NCBI RefSeq assembly: GCF_963576615.1
Contig: NC_088710.1
Span: forward strand, 22,005,114 to 22,069,113
DNA from: Watersipora subatra
Taxonomy: Eukaryota; Bryozoa; Gymnolaemata; Cheilostomatida; Watersiporidae
Direction of reading: 5' to 3'
Length of the DNA: 64,000 nt
Shown here: piece by piece, positions 25,301-52,400 of the stretch
Layout of the letters: every line of letters starts with the position of its first letter
How positions within the stretch are numbered: the stretch's first letter is position 1
Made by a program: the position numbers and the translations under genes
Notes under the pieces: generated by a model
What the model was told of the DNA's origin: nothing
Database searches by the model: none
What the model saw: the letters and a program-made list of their open reading frames with translations, nothing else

Positions 25301-28300
25301 CTATGAAGGACAATTGCCCTCTATGAAGGACAATTGCCCTCTATGAAGGACAATTGTCCTCTATGAAGGACAATTGCCCTCTATGAAGGACATTGCCCTC
25401 TATGAAGGACATTGCCCTCTATGAAGAACAATTGCCCTCTAGGGAGGACATTGCCCTCTAGGAACATGTTCATAATATGTAGGAATTTGGGGTTCCGTTA
25501 TTTTTTTCATTCAATCAATGTTGTAACTAAATGTATGTACTAATTTTTGCTTCTAGTTATTATTCTATTAATTGATTAAATAAAGCTCGTAGGCTACGCA
25601 CACACGCACACACGCCCACACGCACGCACGCACGCACGCACGCATGCACACACACACACATAGATTATTGTCATAAAATCAGTAATTTACATAGAAGATA
25701 ACACACATTGAGCGACACGACTTACATAGTATATAAATAGCTGTCTTATTATAATATAGTTGATGTTGTACAGATTTGACTAAACTATGTAAAGTCTACA
25801 AGTTTTGATTCAATTTTGTTGTATTTTGCTGTTTTTAGGGATTATTAAAAACCTTTTACGCCAGCTTTTTTTAAACTTAAAGTTAAATTCAGAGACCTGA
25901 TATTTAAAAAGACAGTTATATCTACTGTTGGAATAAAAATGTATAAAATATGCTAAAGAATGCATTGAGAACCAAACTACTAGCTACTACAAAGGCAGAA
26001 GTGACTTTAAAAAAATAAAATTGTTAGATAAGTTAATGTTTTCCCAGTTTGGGTTGTAATTTAAAATTGTATCAACAATTTGAATAAATTTATAATACAA
26101 TAGCTGAGAAAAAGGTGTTTTTATATAGCAGAATTAAAACACTTTTTCTCAATTTGAAAAATAATGGCAATGGATGATCTTGTTGACAGGTGATGTGTGT
26201 GCGTGCGTGCGTGTGTGTTAATGACAGCAACTGACACTATTGACAGGTGACATGAGTGTTACTGACACCATATGACACTGTTGACAGGTGATGGGAGTGT
26301 TACTGATGCCAGATGGCACCGTTGACAGGTGATATGCATTTTACTGACCTACAACGACACTGTTGACAGGTGACATGAGTGTTACTGACACCAGATGACA
26401 CTGTTGACAGGTGATATGAGTGTTAATTAATGACACTAGATCTCACCATTTAAGTGCATTAGTATTTAAACATTCTTAGTTTCAATGCTTTAAAATCTTT
26501 TCACGACATTAACGGGAAAGTTGATGTCGAGATCACAAGTACATGATTTCACTGGTGTCTATTATTATTATCTGACCTCACCTTGTCCTTAAATGCAGGT
26601 TATGAAGACCCAACCAACCCAAGTTTCTCAGCCACCTCACAAATGTACCACAATGTAGTACAGCTATTACTGCAAAGAATTGAAGATAGTCCGGGAGATA
26701 CGGAAGTTATGTTTGCTACGCATAATGAGGATACATTGAGATTTATCCTCTCTTTGTATGTATATGTGTTTGTCGCTCTGACGTTAACATAATTCTCTTC
26801 TCTGGCATAAAACCAATTGTCGCTTGCATGAGTAATGATTACTGCTACTTGTACTATGCTAAGTGTTTTTAAAATATTACATCCTCTGTTCTAGAGCTAT
26901 AAAGTTCACAAATCATTACATACAAACATTTTACTACTCTTCATTTGAAAATGCATAAAGGTACATAACGCCTATAACCACTTGGTTAGCTACTGCATTT
27001 TGTTAAACTATGGGTACTATAGACCTGATGCTTTGAAGCCTGTCACAGTAGTATTTCACATCTAGTCTTCGAAGTTGCATACAATTTTTTAGGTTGGAAC
27101 TAAAGAGTTATTCAACAAACAACATTAGCTTTGGGCAACTCTATGGAATGTGTGAACATATCACCTTCCACTTGGGTAAGTATTGACAGAGTTTGATTCC
27201 AATGCTAGGCAGCAAAATGGTTTGCTTTGGAAGTATGTGTTTAGTACTTCGTAGCAGATTGGAGCTACCTTTAGTATTTCATAGCAGAGTAGAGTTACCT
27301 TTAGTACTTCATAGCAGAGTGAAGCTACCTTTTAATATTTCATAGCAGAGTGGAGTTACCTTTATTACTTCATAGCAGAGTAGAGTTACCTTTAGTACTT
27401 CATAGCAGAGTAGAGTTACCTTTAGTACTTCATAGCAGAGTGGAGCTACATTTTAATATTTCATAGCAGAGTGGAGCTACATTTTAATATTTCATAGCAG
27501 ACTGGATTTACCTTTAGTACTTCATAGCAGACTGGATTTACCTTTAGTACTTCATAGCAGAGTAGAGTTACCTTTAGTACTTCATAGCAGACTGGATTTA
27601 CCTCTAGTACTTCATAGCAGAGTAGAGCTACCTTTATTACTTCATAGCAGAGTAGAGTTACCTTTAGTACTTCATAGCAGAGTAGAGTTACCTTTAGTAC
27701 TTCATAGCAGAGTGGAGTTACCTTTAGTACTTCATAGCAGAGTGGAGTTACCTTTAGTACTCCATAGCAGGGTAACCTTTAGTACTTACTGTATAGCAGC
27801 GAGTAGAGTTACCTTTAGTACTTATAGCAGGGTAACCTTTAGTACTTATAGCAGCGAGCAGAGTAACCTTTAGTACTTATAGCAGCGAGTAGAGTTACCT
27901 TTAAAAAATAACACAATAATACAATAAGCTACATCTGAATCATTTCTAAAACTTAAAAATAATTAAGTTTTGAACTTTTAGTAACAGACACAGCATTATA
28001 GGTTTTTGTCTGATATTGTACAATATGAGATTAAATTATGTTAATTAAATCATTGTATTATTATATTATATTGCATTGCACTATATGATATTATAGCATG
28101 TTATATTATACTGTTTTATATCATACTGTACATTAATATACTCTATTACTATCATGTTATTATATAACCACATTATGTTTCATTATGTTATATTATGCTG
28201 TAGTACTATAAAATGTGCTACATTGTATAATGTTATGTTATATTTCAATTTCTAGTATTATGTTATATTATTTATATATTTTAATCTAAGTGTTTTTTCT

Positions 28301-30237: not shown

Positions 30238-30298
30238 TTCATACTTACCTATTACTTACATATTACTTACCTATTACTTACATATTACTTACCTTTGT
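30238..30298 (+). repeat. Short tandem repeat of ATTACTTACCT/ATTACTTACAT
   Basis: Five or six 11-bp units in the intergenic gap. On the minus strand each contains GTAAGTAAT, resembling a splice donor. Confidence 0.85.
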
Positions 30299-34400: not shown

Positions 34401-37400
34401 AATAGCTGTATATAAGCACTGAGTAATTACAACAGCTCACACTGTAAGCCTATATAATAAAAGCACTCAGCATTCTCCAATTTACTACGTATACCAATCA
34501 CAGGTCAGCAACCATGGCTGCTTCTTCCAATTAAGAAACATGACAGATAAATCAAAAACATTTTAATATCAATCACTCTTTTTCAAACTAGCTATCTTAG
34601 TTGATGCGATGCAATTTTAGCTTGTTGATTTCAAGCTAATTATTTTATTCAGTAGACTTCTACCACTTCTTAAAAAACGACTTTGTTGCTTGCGGGGTTG
34701 TCTCTTCTCTACGCCATATACTATAATGAGCAGACAACTTTATCAACAAATAAAAATATCTACCTTGAGCATGAGGAGTTCAGCTTTATCTTGTTCTAAA
34801 AGGAACACTTGTTTATTCATCTCAGCAATCGAACTGCCTCCATCTCTCGCTTCATTTAATAGTTTATCTATTTCCTGTTTAAGGTTCTGTATCTCATTGT
34901 CCTTGATCGCTATAAGATGTGCTCTGTCTGTCATAAACTGCTCCATCTAGTTGAAATTGAAAATGCTTGAATGGAATATTCTAGAATGATAACTTCAAGT
35001 GCTGATGAAAAGGTTTATGCATAGTAGATTACTTTAGAGTAAACAGTATACGCTTAAGTTTCCACATGATGTAAGGGCATGTCAAAAAGAACATTTGCTT
35101 TTGATTGACCTGCTATGACCTGTCATATTGACAACTATAAGGGCATATAATGAACTAAATGAATATGTTGGCAAAGCCCCTCTTACCTCTTGACAATATT
35201 TACATAAAATAGCCGGCTTAGAGATTTGGGTAGAGCTATACTTTCAATATGTATACAAAAGGTTACCTATTCTTGATTTTTGCAGGTATCAGTTAATATG
35301 GATGACAATGTACATATCCCACTAAAACAAAACACACTTTAATTTGGGAGTTTAAAAGCAGACTCACTTTTGACACTAATTTGTATCCATACTTCATTAG
35401 AGTGAGTACACAGCTCTTTATAAGTACTCTCAAACAGTGACTGCTTTTTTGCTTTGTATCTGTTTTGCATGAACAATATTATAATTTTTGGCAAGCAACA
35501 AAATGGTCTCCTACATCATTTTAATCTCATAACATCAAGATTATAATTATGCTCTTTTACCATCTGTATTATAAAATACACAATAGCAGGAAAGTAGACA
35601 ATATTAGAGTGAGAATTTAGCATTTATGATAATTCCAATCCGAACCCTAAATTGCTAAATGCTCATTTTTCTTATTAGCTACAGATGCTAATAATTACAT
35701 ACAGCTAGTTTTTTTTATTGCCAGTTGCCAATTTCTGACTATCAATTGTTATATAGAAATGCTAGCTATAACTTGCTAGATGCTAATAATTAATTGCTAC
35801 TTGTTAGTGAATTTGATGGTTGCCAACCTTCTGTTTGTAGTCACTTTGTAAAGAGGCAACCTCTTGGTTCTTGTTAGCATGAAGTCTGGCCGCATCGACT
35901 TCCATTTTCTCCGTGTCTACCATTAGCTTACGTATTTCGGCTTGCTTTTCCTGCATAGTTGCCTGGCTCTCTGCCAATATAGCGTTTTTTTCCTCTTTCA
36001 ATAGTGACAGCTCTTTACGAAGCCTTTGAATTTCTGCCTCCTTGTCTTTGTTGACAGTATGTAAGTGAGCACTCATATCACCTGTCAAAAGTATTATCTG
36101 GTGTCATTACAATCCATACCATCTGTCAAAAGTGTGATCTGGTGTCAATAACACTCATGTCACCTGCCAACAGTGTCATCCTTTATTATGAGCACTGCCG
36201 CCACCTACCAACTGTTTCATCCAGGGTCATTGGCGCTAATATTCTTTTTTATTAAGGTCTCTAAAAACTATTGTGTTGGCAACCAAAATTGTTTTGGTTC
36301 TTCAGTAGTTAAAAAGGTTATAGCTTAGGAATAAGCTAATTGCCGTTTCAAAATCACAGTCATTTGAAATAGACAGTCGGAAAAGTGATAATGTGTTTAA
36401 TTTCTGTTTGAGAATGTCATTTGAACTTTTATACAAAGAATAACAGGGCTAAATGATTATGAGGGCTGTAGATTAATTTGGTCTACCTAATAAATACTGT
36501 AAATTATTTGCAATTGACCTAATGCAACTCAATTACAAATAAATTACATATCAATTAATTTATATACAAAACCAAGTCAGAATAAAAAGGAAAGGTTTTC
36601 CAATTCATCTGCATTGCAAAGATTATTATAATATTAATATGTAATAATATATAACAGTAATTCAAACTGAGCATTATGAAATGTGTCAGAATTAAAAAAG
36701 CTCAACTACAAACTCAAAAATAAGGTTCAGCTATTACATCATGATTTTTGTTCAAATAAAAACTTGTGCCTTTCTTCTCTTCCGATTTAAATAAAATTTT
36801 TCTATTCGTTATATTATGTGGCTACTTTGTTGCTATCAGCTAACTCCTGAAATTGACCAATCAACATTTGTGACATCTATCAAGTTTCTCACAAGCTTTT
36901 TGCTAACTTTTGGCCATATTGGCTCAATTTTAGCTTGATAAGTAATTAGCAAGTGTTGATCGAAATCCTTTCAGGATACTGCTCTTCAATATGTAGCTTG
37001 AGATCTATACATATCTCTATTAAAATACTCCAATTTGTCATCATGTGTGCGTGAGCTTGCTAGTCTAGGTTAACGCTTTGCACTTCCTATAAGGTTATCA
37101 CTTGCCTATTTCAGAGTATAGACGCTTCATTTCATCCTCCTTCAGTTTAAGAGTTGTCTCATTCTGCTCCAGTATATCCATATGTTTCCTCTGGAATACC
37201 TTAAGTTGGGACTGAAGTCTGAACAGCTCTGAGTCATTAACTGAGGATGCCTTGTCAACCTGATTAGACAACTCCTCAACTTGCTTGGCAAGAGTGTTTA
37301 TCTCATTGTTCTTTGCTGGTTAAACAGGAGTGACAACTCTAATAGATTTGGGAAACACGGTATTTGTTATATTGGAAAAAGGAAGCTGTGATAGTGTAGC

Positions 37401-43400: not shown

Positions 43401-46400
43401 TGGCTGACATAATTTTCTTTGTGGATTGTACAGTCTACAATCCACAAAGAAAATTCTCTTTACAGGAGAATGATGAATGTTTACGCAGAAGATCGCTTTA
43501 ACCAGAAAAATGTCTAACAGTGTGCAAAATTGTTTAAAGAAGGCAGGACAAGAGTTGATGATGAAGAGAGATCATGTAGACCTAGTGATGTGAGAGCCTC
43601 TAACATAATTGAAGCAGTTATTAAGCTTGTTCAATTTGAGAGAAGGTAACAGTGAAAGTTGTTGTGAAGTATTTTAGTTTGTCAATTGGTGCAGCTCATA
43701 AAATAGTCATGAGGCACGCTTGTACATAAATTATTTAAACTCAATCTTGTCTTTACTTACAAAATGTCTGTACTTACTTTTGTCTGTACGTACACAATGT
43801 CTTCTATTTTCCATTATTGTGTCTCATTTTATGTTTATTTATCACAATTATCTCTGGAGATTGATTTAAAAACTGCTAAAAACTGCTAAAAACTTATGGT
43901 CTTTCCTTTTGTGGCATTTCATAACAAACTTTAGCGTTTTATTTGAAAGCTGTCAAACTTTTTTACGTTCTCCAAACTGTTACAATCCTCACCATTTTCT
44001 ATTTTCGTTAGTGAACTTATCTTTTATGTACTCATTGCTAGATTTTTACCTTTAACGCTTTTTATATGTTTTGTAGGTCTCTCAATGATTTTCTTTACCT
44101 CTTCCCTCAACTCAGAGATTCATAAAACAAGAGTAATACATACTATTTTTAATCTCAAGTAACTTACCTCATCTCGCATCTCAAATATCCTTGCGTCTCT
44201 CTCCTTGATAAGTTCAATTAATTTGACATTGTCTGTTTCGAGTTTGTCAATCTTTTCTTTCATTCTGGTCGAATCTTCAGTCATTATCACTGAAATTATA
44301 CACCGAATGATGTATGACCAGGACCAGCAGATCAACAACAGCTAAAAACAAGTACTACCTTAAAGAGTATACAACTTCATAAAAGCTGTTTATATAAAAC
44401 ATGAAAGTAAAAAATTATTTATAAAGAATTTTAATGGACTTTAAATTTTCTGAAGCTTCCTATACAAATGACAGTTACTTTCATAAAGCAACCAATAAAA
44501 GAGCCTGATTTGGCAAAAAATTAATTTTAGTATCCATTTTTTATTATGTCATTCGGCATAAATTTAGTTTGAAATTTTTTTTTCAATTATAATATACAAA
44601 TATCATAAAAAGTGCAACAGCTAGACAATCAAATCAAATAAATGGTTCAACATATAGCGTTTAAAATATATTTCTCTGTTAAGAGAATAAATATTAAGAA
44701 GAACATTGTTCAAAAAGCTAGTGATAACTTTGCAAAATAATTGTTATAGGTTGTAAGCTATTGGCTCATATCATGTAAGTTAAAATGAATTGAGGACTTG
44801 TAATTGTCATGTAAAATGGAGACACAACCCATGAAAAATCTTGAAACCGTCAATTGAGTTAAAATACGCATTTACATGTAGCATAACATTGCATTGTATA
44901 TTTGTGTGACCCTAATTTAAAGACACTATTAACTTATCATTATAACCAATTAGACTGAGCTAAAGGTACAAAATCTTCTAAGTAAAGATTCAAGTTATTT
45001 GTGTTCGGGATAGCTGCAGAAAGACATTTTACATGCACAGTTGTGTGATGTAAAATTTGTAAACACATTGTGAATCTTCTATCAAAATAAAAAATTTGAA
45101 ACTGTAGCCCACATCCAAGAGTTGTGATCATCGAGATTGAGTTGTTTGTGTGAACTGTTTATATGCTGGTTTCTAAAAACAACTTTATTTTGAGTTTTTT
45201 AGCTTTAACAGTTATTATTGCAATTTTGTAGTACGGTTACTGTTAGAATTATTCAATACAAAGTTTCCAAAACTGCCTCACAGTAACAGATTTTCTCAAT
45301 TTAATAAAATTTTGAAACTACTTTAAATCACAGTGCATAGCTTTATGCTATTTTTAACTTGTGTTTATCAAGAAAAAGTATGATACACTAATAATTTATT
45401 ACAAATGTCTAGAAGAAATATAAATGTTTCTAGACAAAACGTCTAGTTGTGGCACAGCTAAATAATCAGTACAAATGATGAAGAATAACAAACTAATAAA
45501 GACAACTTACTAAGCATCTCAGCTTTATCGTCTACATGTCCAGATTTAGTTCTGGGAGTTGAAGTGCTGGACCTAGGAGTGAAGCCTTGGTCTCGGCACT
45601 GCTGACCAAACCTTTCTAGGTCAGCAATCTTTTCATGCAACTGAAGAATTGTTTCATCTCTCATTCTTACTATGTATGCTGTAGATCCGCTGGGGGGTTG
45701 CCCACTGTGTAATAATTTCGACCGTACAGCAAAAAAATGTGAAATTGCTTGTTTACAACAGAAACAACTTGGATTAGCTTCTACCTGGTTTTTTTCATCA
45801 CCTAACAATTTTCTTTTAATTTCCTTTTAATACAACAGTTCTCACACATAGTTACAAAGAAGAGCACTCTGCTCACATGTCTATACATAGATGAGATGAA
45901 CTTTATTTTCTTTGTTGTTTAAAGTTGTAAAGCATGCGTAAGCTTTTGCAGTCATCACTTTAATTTGCTAATGAGAGTGTCTATCATGACAGACAACTTT
46001 TCAGAGAGTCAGAAACCTATGAGAACAGCCTACTAGTTTAGAGTTCATCTATGTTGAGAGTGATGTTAACAAGACAACTACCAGTCTACTAACAAATAAA
46101 TAAACTAGTGTGCCTGATGAGATATAATGTTTTGCATACCGGTTATATTGCTCAATGTTAACAGAATGTTTGAAAGTTATAACAACACTGCTAAGAGTTC
46201 AAATAATAATTGTGCTACATATAATGATTTTAGGATATCATATATAGAGACAATACCATTGCTAAAAGTAAGAATAAAGTTAGTAATGTTAGTAGCACAC
46301 TGACTTCCTGCGTACAACCTCTGCTACACTTACTTCTGCTACACTTACTTCTGCTACACTTACTTCTGTTACACTTACATCTGTTACACTTACTTCTGCT

Positions 46401-49400
46401 ACACTTACTTCTGCTACACTTACTTCTGTTACAGTTACTTCTGCTACACTTACTTCTATTACACTTACTTCTGCTACACTTACTTCTGCTACACTTACTT
46501 CTGTTACACTTACTTCTGCTACACTTACTTCTGTTACACTTACTTCTGCTACACTTACTTCTGTTACACTTACGTCTGCTACACTTACTTTTGCTACACT
46601 TACTTCTGTTACACTTACTTCTGCTACACTTACTTCTGTTGCACTTACTTCTGCTACACTTACTTCTGTTACACTTACGTCTGCTACACTTACTTTTGCT
46701 ACACTTACTTCTGTTACACTTACTTCTGATATAGTTCTATATCCTTGCGGGCGATCTTGAGCTCATGCTTGAGTTTGTTATAATCCAAATCTTTGAGTTC
46801 GTCTTTTTCTCGCGCCGCTTCGACGATACTTTTCTTTTTCCTAAGTTCTTCACCCTCTGCTTCTAGTTGAGCTATTTTTGCTTTCAACCGAGGAATGTCA
46901 TTGAGACTCTGTTCCGCTGACTCTGCCCTGTGTTTTAGCTACGATCAAGTGATAAGATTGGTTTATTAGCTATGCAATTGGCAATTGGATTGACAGTAGC
47001 TTGTTTAGTAACCTTTGTAACTAGCTTAAAATTCTAAAATTTTGGTGGAGAAGATTACTACTAGCGACAGTTGTCTGTCGTGTCACAAGTGTTGCATAGA
47101 TTTGGTTACTGTCCTACCTTCTTTATGTCAGATTCATATGACTCTAATATTTATAAAACTGGTTCTTTAGCAACTTTAAAGATTTCAATTTTCTAACAAG
47201 ATTTGAAAGTTTTCTCTGGCAGTTCATATAATTAATGCTATCTCAGTACATTATAACTTGCAATAAAAACTAGCTAACCACCAAGTAGCTGAAAAGCATT
47301 CTCAATGGTTATATATTTTTTGGGTAAGAAAGTTTTTCATTTCAACCAGACGTTCTTTGGTCACTGAATGAAAGTTTTAAAAGGTGCTCAAATCAAATGA
47401 AGTATGCAAACAATGGCTACACAAGTCTCAACTGCTTTAACAAAATGAATAGCATTTCAAATAATTCCTGTCCTATTGTCACCTAAGTTGATTTATTGAA
47501 TTATACATCAACAATTCGTGAAGAAATAAATTATGGTTGTCAAATCAAACACAAGCCTTGGTGGCATCTGGCTGAACAAAATTGACCTTGAATCATCTCA
47601 AGCTGTTATGTTGTAGGAATGAGTTACTTTAACAGGTTCTCCCAGCGTAAGGCCATGACATTCGAAAACTGTAAACCTCACTGAAATTTTTGATAGCAAA
47701 AAAACACTTGTTTGATTTAATTAGAAGTCACTGGAACTTCAATTGCCAACTTTCAGTAGGTTCCCTCATTCATTCCATACCTATGACTGTCTTTCTGTTC
47801 TTCTCTATCAATGTAACAATGATCAGATTATTGGATTTGATAGAATGTTAGATATCTATTATAGACCGTCTAATTTAATGTAACCTCTAATATTATATAA
47901 GATAATATATAGATAATAATATATATAGTATATAATAATATATATATAATATATATATTACTATATAATATATGTATTATATAATAAATTTATAACCACA
48001 AATATTGTAAACTAGCCATAAGTAGTAGGATTGTTGGGTATCTCTAAAAAGAAAATGTTAAGAAAGCTGTTAGGGCCTTTGAATATAAATTCTTTTCCAA
48101 TTTGTGCTCTGTTTGTGATATAAACCCTGACTGACTAATCATATTTACCAAGTCAAACTCGAGCTGCAATTCATTGGTTTGACGTTTCAGGGCTGTGTTT
48201 TCTTCTAGGCATTGCTCATATTCACCGAGAGCTGATTGACTCTTCACTTTAGTCACTTCCTCATACAGCCTCTCGATCTCTGCATTTTTCTCCTTTAAAG
48301 ATAAAAAGATGCAGTTGGCTATTGAACATTGTACAAGTCATTATATAACATTGTACAATTCATTATATAACATTGTACAAGTCATTATATAACATTGTAC
48401 AATTCATTATATAACATTGTACAAGTCAATATATAACATTGTACAAGTCATTATATAACATTGTACAAGTCATTATATAACATTGTTAGTACAAGTCATT
48501 ATATAACATTGTACAAGTCATTATATAACATTGTACAAGTCATTATATAACATTGTTAGTACAAGTCATTATATAACATTGTACAAGTCAATATATAACA
48601 TTGTACAAGTCATTATATAACATTGTACAAGTCAATATATAACATTGTACAAGTCATTATATAACATTGTACAATTCATTATATAACATTGTACAAGTCA
48701 TTATATAACATTGTACAATTCATTATATAACATTGTACAAGTCAATATATAACATTGTACAAGTCATTATATAACATTGTACAAGTCATTATATAACATT
48801 GTTAGTACAAGTCATTATATAACATTGTACAAGTCATTATATAACATTGTACAAGTCAATATATAACATTGTACAAGTCAATATATAACATTGTACAAGT
48901 CAATATATAACATTGTACAAGTCAATATATAACATTGTACAAGTCATTATATAACATTGTACAAGTCATTATATAACATTGTACAAGTCATTATATAACA
49001 TTGTACAAGTCATTATATAACATTGTACAAGTCATTATATAACATTGTTAGTACAAGTCATTATATAACATTGTACAAGTCAATATATAACATTGTACAA
49101 GTCATTATATAACATTGTACAAGTCAATATATAACATTGTACAAGTCATTATATAACATTGTTAGTACAAGTCATTATATAACATTGTACAAGTCAATAT
49201 ATAACATTGTACAAGTCATTATATAACATTGTACAAGTCATTATATAACATTGTACAAGTCATTATATAACATTGTTAGTACAAGTCAATATATAACATT
49301 GTTAGTACAAGTCAATATATAACATTGTACAAGTCAATATATAACATTGTACAAGTCATTATATAACATTGTACAAGTCAATATATAACATTGTACAAGT

Positions 49401-52400
49401 CATTATATAACATTGTACAAGTCATTATATAACATTGTTAGTACAAGTCATTATATAACATTGTTAGTACAAGTCATTATATAACATTGTTAGTACAAGT
49501 CATTATATAACATTGTACAAGTCAATATATAACATTGTACAAGTCATTATATAACATTGTACAAGTCATTATATAACATTGTACAAGTCATTAAAGGTAG
49601 GAAATAAAATAGAGAAATAGAGCTTACATAAAAGCTTTTCTTTTGCTGTTCGGACAGGATTTCCTTTTCTTTGTTACATTCATCGAGGAGACGATTGAAA
49701 TTATCCATTTCTATTTTCTTTTTCTTATTATAGTCGAGCAGTTTCTGAGTCAACTCGGCTATTTGACGTTCCATATCCTGCTCCCTCATTAAAAGTCGCT
49801 GATAGTCCTGCCATTATAACACAGTTGTTAGTGGTGACAAGCACTAGCCAATCAAATAAGTCATGCTACTTGTTGTTTTAAACGAAATACAAAGACCTTT
49901 TAGTATGGTGGAAAACTGAACCTTCTTTTTAGCTAAAAAGTCGACCTTACCATAAAGCTAAAATATAGAACTTCCCAGAAAGTTTAATTACTGTACATTT
50001 TAAAAAGATAAAATACAGACTTCTTCGGGAAGTTTAATTACTGTATTTTATGGAGAGATTAACTTTTTAAAAAGCCCAAGTGCAAAGCTTTTCAAAAACC
50101 TTTAGACAGCACTAACGTCAGCAGCAGAGTTTCAGAGACAGTAAAGATTCTGTTTTATGAACTATAACAAGTAAAGAAGCCAATTTGTCAACACAAATGT
50201 CTGACACTAATCAAGGAGTGTCAGCTCAAACAACTAGTTGGTAGACATCATTTGGTAACCATTTTCAGTCCTTAATTTTGAACATGTATTAAATATAAAA
50301 CATTTACTCTACCTCATGGTGAAACTGAGTATTGGTTGGAAGAAGATTACTGGAATGGCGAGGAACATTTAGCTCTGGTTTTGAGCCCTTGCTCGCTGTC
50401 CGGTTAGGTAGAGATATCGCTTTCTGCAGCGGAAGCGTTTCTGAGCTAAAAGCCGACTGCGAAGCTTGCTGCTCCGCGGATCTGAAACTTTCTCTGATGT
50501 GCTCTAGTTCTTGTCTTTTTTGTGACAGCTCTTGCACCATCCTGTCATTTTCTAATTTGAGAGAGTTGAGAGAATCGTGCGCCTCAGCTGTGGCCGAAAG
50601 GCAGCTGTTTAACTCATCTCTACAGTTTTGCAGTTTGGAATGAAGGTCATCTTTCTCCAAGTTCAACAGATTGCAATTCTCACACGTGGCGGCTGCCTGT
50701 GTGCCTGCAGACGCGATTCTATGCAGATTACTGTCTATACTAGTTGATCTCTCATCAACTGCAAACTTGGCTTGCGTCGTTGCAGATACATGACGTCGGT
50801 TTAAAGAAAGTCGTATGCTTTCGATTTCATCTCTCGCTTCCTGTAACTTAGATTTGAGTCGCTGGTTTTCTAACATTTCTTCCTCGAAATCCTTTTTGTT
50901 GCCTTTCATCAGACCCTCCAGCTCCGTTTGCTTCTTTGTAAATTCCTTTTCTAGTTTGTCCTTTGACTGCTTACGCTCGGCCTCTTGGTCTACCATTCTT
51001 TGTTTCAGATCTTCACAGGCTGTCACCAATTCTTCCAACTCCTCTTGTTTCTCGTTTAACTCCTTCTTTAGTTGAACATTCTGCTGCTTGCAAATTTTCT
51101 CACGATCTAACAACTGTTGTTGTGTGGTCTGAAACTCTGCAAGCATCTCTGCGTTCTTGTTCTCTAGTTTTTTATTCTTCTCTCTGAGAGCAGTGATCTC
51201 AGTTCTCTCTGCTGCAGATGACAGATCTATATCCTCTATCATTCTCTCCTTCTCTTCTTGTAATAATGCACAATTTTGTTCCAACTTTGCCAACAGCGCC
51301 TTTGTCTTACTCAAATCCTTCTGCGCTATATTTAGGTCAGAGAGTAAACTATCTTTTTCTTCATTTGACATTCTTACCGAAATATCGCACTCTTTTTTAA
51401 AGCTTTCCAAATCCTGCAACGAGTCTCGGAGTTGTCCGCTCAATTGCTGGTTCTCTGCCAATAAGTGCTCTTTTTCGAGATTGCCTTGCGCTTTTATTGA
51501 CTGCTTCCGAGCGTGTAGCATTTGCTTGAGCTCATCAATTTCGTTGGTTGCTACCTCCAGCTTGGAAACAAGTCGGCGATTTTCTTGTTCCATAAATGAA
51601 TTCTGAGGTTGTGCTTCACTAGTTGCCCTAAATAAATAAATCAGTAAACAATTTTTATAATGATAAATAGGTATTTGGCTGTTTTGTTATTTTTAACATT
51701 TTCAACTCTGATTTGCCGACTTATTTATATATATAACCATATTAGTTGAATGCCCGGGTGATAAAAAAGTCTTTGGACAAAAAATTTATTCTCGTTCAAC
51801 ATTCACCATTACAACAACTTCGTCATTCTAAATTTTAAACTTCATATCATAAGAAAAATCTTTTTCTGCAGTTCAAATAAATTAAGAAAAAAAGAGAGCA
51901 ACTGTAAAAGTTTTAAAACTTTTTAAACAGCCATAATTTTTAAGTTTCATAACTTGAAAGAAGTGTTTCGGTGAAATAAATTAAGAGGAAAAATAAAAAT
52001 GTAAAGGTGTTTAAATGTAAATGTGAAAATATTTGAAAGTAATGGCTAAATATAGTTGGTTTTGTTACAACCACAATAAAAAATTGTTTGATAAACAGGT
52101 ATATGATTTTAGTTCGTTTCAGTGCTGGCATCATAAGGTGAAAACAACGTAGGCTATAGACATATATAGAGTGGTATAGAAACTCATAGTAATTATTTAA
52201 TGCAATCACGTGCTGGAAAAATCATCAAAAATATCATAATTAAAAAAAGTAACAAAACAATATGTTAATCTTAGTAACTATAGTTACCTACAATAACATT
52301 AGTGTCTTTTGTGGTTATGCTCTTCAAGATAATGTAACACTACAATGTACTACAAGGAGAGTTATTACCTTCAAGACAAAAACCTAAGATGCTTATATGC

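Follow-up and report, generated by a model that had tools for sequence, protein, structure and literature searches.

How does a gene splice correctly when its 5' splice site has been multiplied into a row of almost identical copies, and how would such a row arise? A coding exon of the bryozoan Watersipora subatra raises this question, as it ends inside the first unit of a minisatellite whose units carry the donor core GTAAGT. We analyzed it within its window, the whole stretch of 64,000 nucleotides from contig NC_088710.1, and positions without a contig label are those of the window. A slash in a sequence marks a splice junction. The reading we favor, with a probability of about 0.8, is that of a donor minisatellite of the mirage type, which would have arisen by slippage at the exon-intron junction, would be nearly neutral and would be spliced at its exon-proximal donor.

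The donor array and its host exon

Fourteen exons were placed by eye on the minus strand from 51627 to 32043, based on open frame, splice consensus and coiled-coil sequence, and were taken as one gene. Successive placed exons are phase-consistent at 11 of their 13 junctions. The misfits from 48149 to 46927 and from 38876 to 37315 imply a missing exon or a wrong site in each place, and they leave the array donor unaffected. This donor (46724/46723) joins the acceptor at 45704 in phase, two extra bases being left by the exon and one base opening the next, and it ranks fourth of 14 by a small scoring matrix. By phase and consensus it reads as the real donor of a coding exon. The original prediction had proposed the same exon end and the same junction to 45704, and both were retained; its exon start at 46938 was not, the more likely start being 46927 (acceptor ACACAG/GGCAG), whose 5' junction is the one out of phase with the preceding placed exon. 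In Pfam searches the array-bearing exon matched only weakly (MAD, 16.5 bits against a cut-off of 30) and three other exons had no match, nor did PDB have one for the longest exon. Elsewhere in the gene, a 22-bp unit repeated about 56 times (48325-49593, minus strand) fills nearly the whole intron from the exon end at 49628 to the exon start at 48292, and a possible GC-AG intron at 37106 (minus strand, donor AAATAG/GCAAGTGAT) is in phase with the next placed exon.

TRF reported the array at 46320-46728 with period 15, 27.3 copies and 91% matches, a degree of repetition that goes far beyond chance. In minus-strand register, its 15-bp unit is CAGAA/GTAAGTGTA followed by A or G, head to tail, and the exon-intron junction runs ...GATATAGAACTATATCAGAA/GTAAGTGTA directly into the tandem repeat. 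There are 27 full units from the CAGAA at 46728 downwards (Table 1); 26 of them keep GTAAGT intact and the exception, unit 20, has GTAACT. The array opens five bases inside the coding exon, CAGAA being exonic, and the rest is intronic, in an intron of about 1,020 nt that lies mostly outside the array. The copy number of about 27, the single unit without the core and a register that takes in the last five exon bases had all been predicted and are borne out.

Table 1. Features of the array and its neighboring exons
Feature	Position	Strand	Basis
Coding exon of 204 nt with coiled-coil-like sequence; its final CAGAA begins the array	46724-46927	-	Open frame, acceptor ACACAG/GG, donor GAA/GTAAGT; start uncertain
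Donor minisatellite, 27 full 15-bp units, first 5 bases exonic	46324-46728	-	TRF and register reading
Exon-proximal 5' splice site GTAAGTGTA, predicted as the only array donor keeping the frame open	46715-46723	-	Phase match with exon 45511-45704; later donors add TAA
Unit 20, sole unit without GTAAGT (GTAACT)	46429-46443	-	Register reading
Two degenerate units, CAGAGGTTGTACG and CAGGAAGTCAGTGTGC, at the intron-side edge	46295-46323	-	Local alignment against shuffles
Next coding exon, acceptor ACACAG/TGGGCAACC	45511-45704	-	Placed by eye, phase

A dispersed-repeat origin of the 15-bp unit was rejected, as it matches the genome outside the array no more often than the control word does: the 15-mer GTAAGTGTAACAGAA has nine matches in the genome, seven of them inside the array, and the reversed word has six. 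No such 15-bp array occurs in the 1,500 bases read of the 3,015-base locus L008. Just past the array, at 46261-46297 (minus strand), lies a stretch resembling an acceptor, with two ACTAAC motifs like branch points, a tract of pyrimidines and TTTTAG, which could give rise to an alternative exon. By a matrix from only 14 exons it scores 1.3, tenth among the intron's twelve best listed AGs and within the leave-one-out range of the placed acceptors (-5.6 to 8.5).

Origin of the array

Several observations support the earlier proposal that the array grew from the exon-intron junction. The match of the five exon bases to the unit has a crude chance of 0.001-0.002, and an exon-suffix match this long or better is found at 1.2% of random positions in the surrounding 2.5 kb. 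The array is bounded by the exon on one side, and its worn copies are confined to the intron side: the 40 bases after unit 27 align locally to the unit, with a fraction of 0.0015 of 2000 shuffles equally good, whereas the exon side shows no alignment to the unit in the same test (0.74). Moreover, immediately behind the array stands CAGAGGT, an in-register repeat of the junction CAGAAGT, so that the two would have stood exactly one period apart in the ancestral single-copy state.

The ancestral junction was probably CAGAA/GTAAGTGTAGCAGAGGTTG, in which the short direct repeat CAGA(A or G)GT would have occurred twice, 15 bases apart and once across the junction. The simplest origin would then be slippage or unequal exchange between the two CAGARGT copies, which would have duplicated the junction, and later exchange may have enlarged and homogenized the array to 27 units, including a duplicated block of seven. 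Units 1-7 and 8-14 differ at a single base (in unit 6) and have the rare CAAAA and CAGAC variants in common; therefore, this 105-bp block was probably duplicated recently. The intron is not made of a duplicated coding segment, as in intron gain by AGGT tandem duplication, since only five exon bases are duplicated in an intron of about 1 kb.

Retention of GTAAGT had been ascribed beforehand, tentatively, either to recent expansion or to selection. As the two seven-unit blocks are nearly identical, recent segmental expansion can explain the intact cores. Selection on the core was not supported: minimum change counts give at least six non-core events and one core event (P=0.16), so that retention of the core needs no selection.

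From its sequence, the array looks like a clear case of the known kind of repeats called mirages, in that the repeat spans the boundary, its copies carry splice signals and the edge copies escape homogenization. The amphioxus reports likewise describe tandem copies across an exon-intron boundary that are partly exonic, bear splice signals and escape homogenization at the edges (PMC3087553; PMC3902484). The dimensions differ, as the globin units are of 150-160 bp in few copies and the Adh3 units of 10-72 bp (PMC3087553), whereas here a 15-bp donor is repeated 27 times. Minisatellite expansion at exon-intron boundaries is also described, as internal tandem repeats, for human genes in segmental duplications; there it altered splicing patterns and formed introns among paralogues, whereas here an existing intron appears to have been lengthened (PMC2812944). 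The kind is thus known, from mirages and from human IFI6.

Donor choice and its consequences

Pairing energies were computed with the U1 5' end. They equal -7.5 in 22 of the 27 units and range from -6.7 to -7.6 in 26, that is, within about 1 kcal/mol, with one weak unit at -3.3. Compared with the 13 other donors of the gene (-4.1 to -10.7), the array donors are therefore middling in strength and nearly equal. By this computation U1 would be able to pair almost equally with 26 donors, each a usable site by sequence, in line with the many equivalent U1 sites of the original prediction. The in-frame stop foreseen for any donor but the first was also recovered: past the first donor the exon frame reads QK and then a stop at once (AAG, then TAA), and a stop lies in every unit. 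Every later donor adds an in-frame TAA, with no further in-frame protein isoforms, and use of any of them would yield a stop codon and, probably, nonsense-mediated decay (NMD).

When introns are long, splicing is reported to favor the 5' site that lies closest across the exon (PMC9225289), and this preference predicts use of the first unit here. With an intron of about 1 kb, exon definition would favor the donor nearest the exon's own acceptor and thus produce normal mRNA. Most transcripts would thus be spliced at the first donor, with a small share probably lost to NMD. The array would then be nearly neutral because splicing would use the exon-proximal donor, and it would remain so while the first unit is intact.

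A minisatellite with multiple splice donor sites in the human 6-16 gene (IFI6/G1P3) was reportedly described by Turri et al. in 1995. As in IFI6, units of a minisatellite would serve as splice donors here, in our case judged by their sequence; the IFI6 unit is 12 nt long and is present in about 26 copies. Two downstream repeat units of IFI6 are reported to be used as donors and to give other protein isoforms, and a 130-residue form is said to predominate (PMC4526556), which is probably the exon-proximal product. The outcome differs, since downstream donors yield isoforms there whereas every later donor adds a stop here. Because IFI6 reportedly uses two downstream units, it is not certain that W. 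subatra splices at the first donor alone.

These same properties would suit a regulated poison array, in which many donors titrate U1, use of later units leads to NMD, array length sets the protein level and selection keeps GTAAGT. The TAA reached from all later donors, the core intact in 26 of the 27 units and the downstream donors reported for IFI6 (PMC4526556) all speak for it, but the core is not significantly better conserved than the other positions (one of at least seven events), the recent duplication of a seven-unit block can explain the uniformity, and amphioxus mirages are reported not to disturb regular splicing (PMC3087553; PMC3902484). We consider such regulation unlikely and prefer the nearly neutral array spliced at its first donor.

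Donor words in other tandem arrays

The rest of the window bears on coincidence, that is, on an ordinary intronic minisatellite whose edge fell at a donor by chance. The window holds 38 merged arrays that cover 10.2% of it, and two of the 28 boundaries of the 14 placed exons touch an array: the donor at 46724 and the acceptor at 36081. Further exons lie outside this count, namely those at about 56-61 kb, the terminal one near 31.1-31.4 kb and proline dehydrogenase. Random placement avoiding exons gives 0.27 expected boundaries, with P=0.035 for two or more and P=0.23 for at least one, and the location of the array at a boundary is less far beyond chance than the repeat itself. GTAAGT is in the TRF consensus of six of the 38 arrays (1210, 30242, 39129, 43748, 46320 and 49931, the last with no exact copy), and TGAATG, GATAGT and TGATAG are in the consensus of none. 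Just one of the six, 46320, sits on a placed donor. Chance would accommodate these figures, as well as the many arrays outside the window without a visible coding exon, but it would not account readily for five exon bases that match the unit exactly, nor for four other arrays that start exactly at an apparent coding-exon donor (see below). We regard coincidence as quite improbable.

Other arrays of the window lie in varied positions. On the minus strand, a 41-bp tandem unit at 36070-36180 covers the acceptor and the first 12 bases of exon 36081-35828 (TTTTGACAG/GTGATATGAGTG), and a related unit forms a five-copy array on the opposite strand (26215-26425, plus) beside the proline dehydrogenase exon (Pfam Pro_dh). 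At 30242-30294 (minus strand), five GTAAGT copies in ATAGGTAAGTA and ATATGTAAGTA units occupy the gap between two convergent genes, as judged from their apparent 3' ends, and are therefore probably not at a donor.

Outside the window, the 5' side was read for 21 donor-word arrays, all on C1 and among the matches listed: three of GTAAGT, three of AGGTAAGT, thirteen of AAGGTAAGT (our own grouping) and two picked by eye. A cluster near C1:352316-352577 and a two-copy case at C1:1048575, where no exon was seen, are outside this count. Four arrays begin exactly at an apparent coding-exon donor (C1:481438, C1:1754785, C1:29810232 and C1:53473695) and one, at C1:2079570, is a sense array within an intron, its start about 280 nt below a donor. 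No coding exon was seen by eye at the start of the other 16, a reading that would miss exons if they were non-coding or very short. A 30-nt exon may stand at the start of C1:33466766, and C1:56380212 may likewise have a short exon; neither was counted. Judged from these apparent donors, donor amplification is recurrent in the genome, but the majority of the donor-word arrays read lie away from any visible coding donor.

Concerning the four exons, that at C1:53473695 corresponds to RhoGAP (Pfam PF00620, E 6.4e-14, profile 89-147 of 148), and that at C1:29810232 presumably resembles a nuclear-receptor domain, for which Pfam returned nothing. Pfam had no match for the peptide at C1:1754785, and neither Pfam nor PDB had one for that at C1:481438. 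The apparent donors that open the arrays at C1:53473695 and C1:29810232 belong to the loci C1:53473630-53474280 (L054, the RhoGAP exon end) and C1:29809880-29810540 (L049). At an identity of at least 80%, the unit shares 12 exon-end bases at C1:1754785, as 0.8% of random positions do, and 16 at C1:29810232, as do 13 of 610 other positions in a locus that includes the array's own copies. By the same measure, the arrays at C1:481438 and C1:53473695 start at the donor and share no exon bases with their units. As two of the four other cases lack shared exon bases, birth across the junction is not general.

Donor words were also counted in the 783.7-Mb assembly, where very common words were skipped, so that all counts are lower bounds, and where triples are match counts in which long arrays weigh heavily. 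Three-copy tandem AGGTAAGT gave at least 3,489 matches versus at least 206 for the reversed word; the single words gave at least 40,052 versus at least 28,856, a 1.39-fold difference. Triples of AAGGTAAGT numbered at least 708 versus at least 19 for the reversed word. GTAAGT triples within short distances reached at least 40,852 versus at least 12,352 for the reversed word TGAATG, an excess that is weak alone because triples of GATAGT (at least 21,528) and TGATAG (at least 28,897) are within two-fold of GTAAGT. Single counts of the four hexamers in 200 kb range from 92 to 144 (92, 103, 141 and 144). The excess of the 8- and 9-mers is stronger than that of the hexamer, the reversed word being the sole control. 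Counted as independent arrays among the matches listed, AGGTAAGT had three in the first 4.24 Mb of C1, a small number, and the control word 12 in about 356 Mb, a roughly twenty-fold difference. A random 200-kb sample with 74 arrays of period 10 or more contained GTAAGT in two, TGAATG in one and GATAGT in three, with no enrichment at that depth. We put forward only tentatively, and with some doubt, that the 5' splice-site consensus is a preferred minisatellite seed throughout the genome, by which exon donors would be repeatedly amplified, introns would grow from their 5' ends and spliceosomes would routinely choose the first of many equal donors.

U1 also protects long introns from premature cleavage and polyadenylation, a function known as telescripting. 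That sense GTAAGT arrays serve as landing pads that bind U1 without splicing and give this protection would agree with the over-representation of donor words in tandem arrays genome-wide, with the intronic sense array at C1:2079570 and with 39 sense versus 3 antisense GTAAGT in the gene span 31000-62000 (TGAATG, 13 versus 12), but 26 of those 39 are in the array, the bias outside it is 13 versus 3 with real donors included, and most donor arrays read have no gene evidence, which makes this idea very hard to credit.

A row of equal donors within one intron, such as the mirage-type array favored here, is a natural experiment on how the spliceosome chooses the right 5' splice site among identical neighbors, and it has a built-in read-out, as a wrong choice yields a stop codon. 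The context is new, and what most deserves to be followed is that donor words are in excess in tandem arrays across the genome. If donor words do seed arrays genome-wide, W. subatra would offer many loci of this sort, as well as a way for introns to lengthen from their 5' ends.
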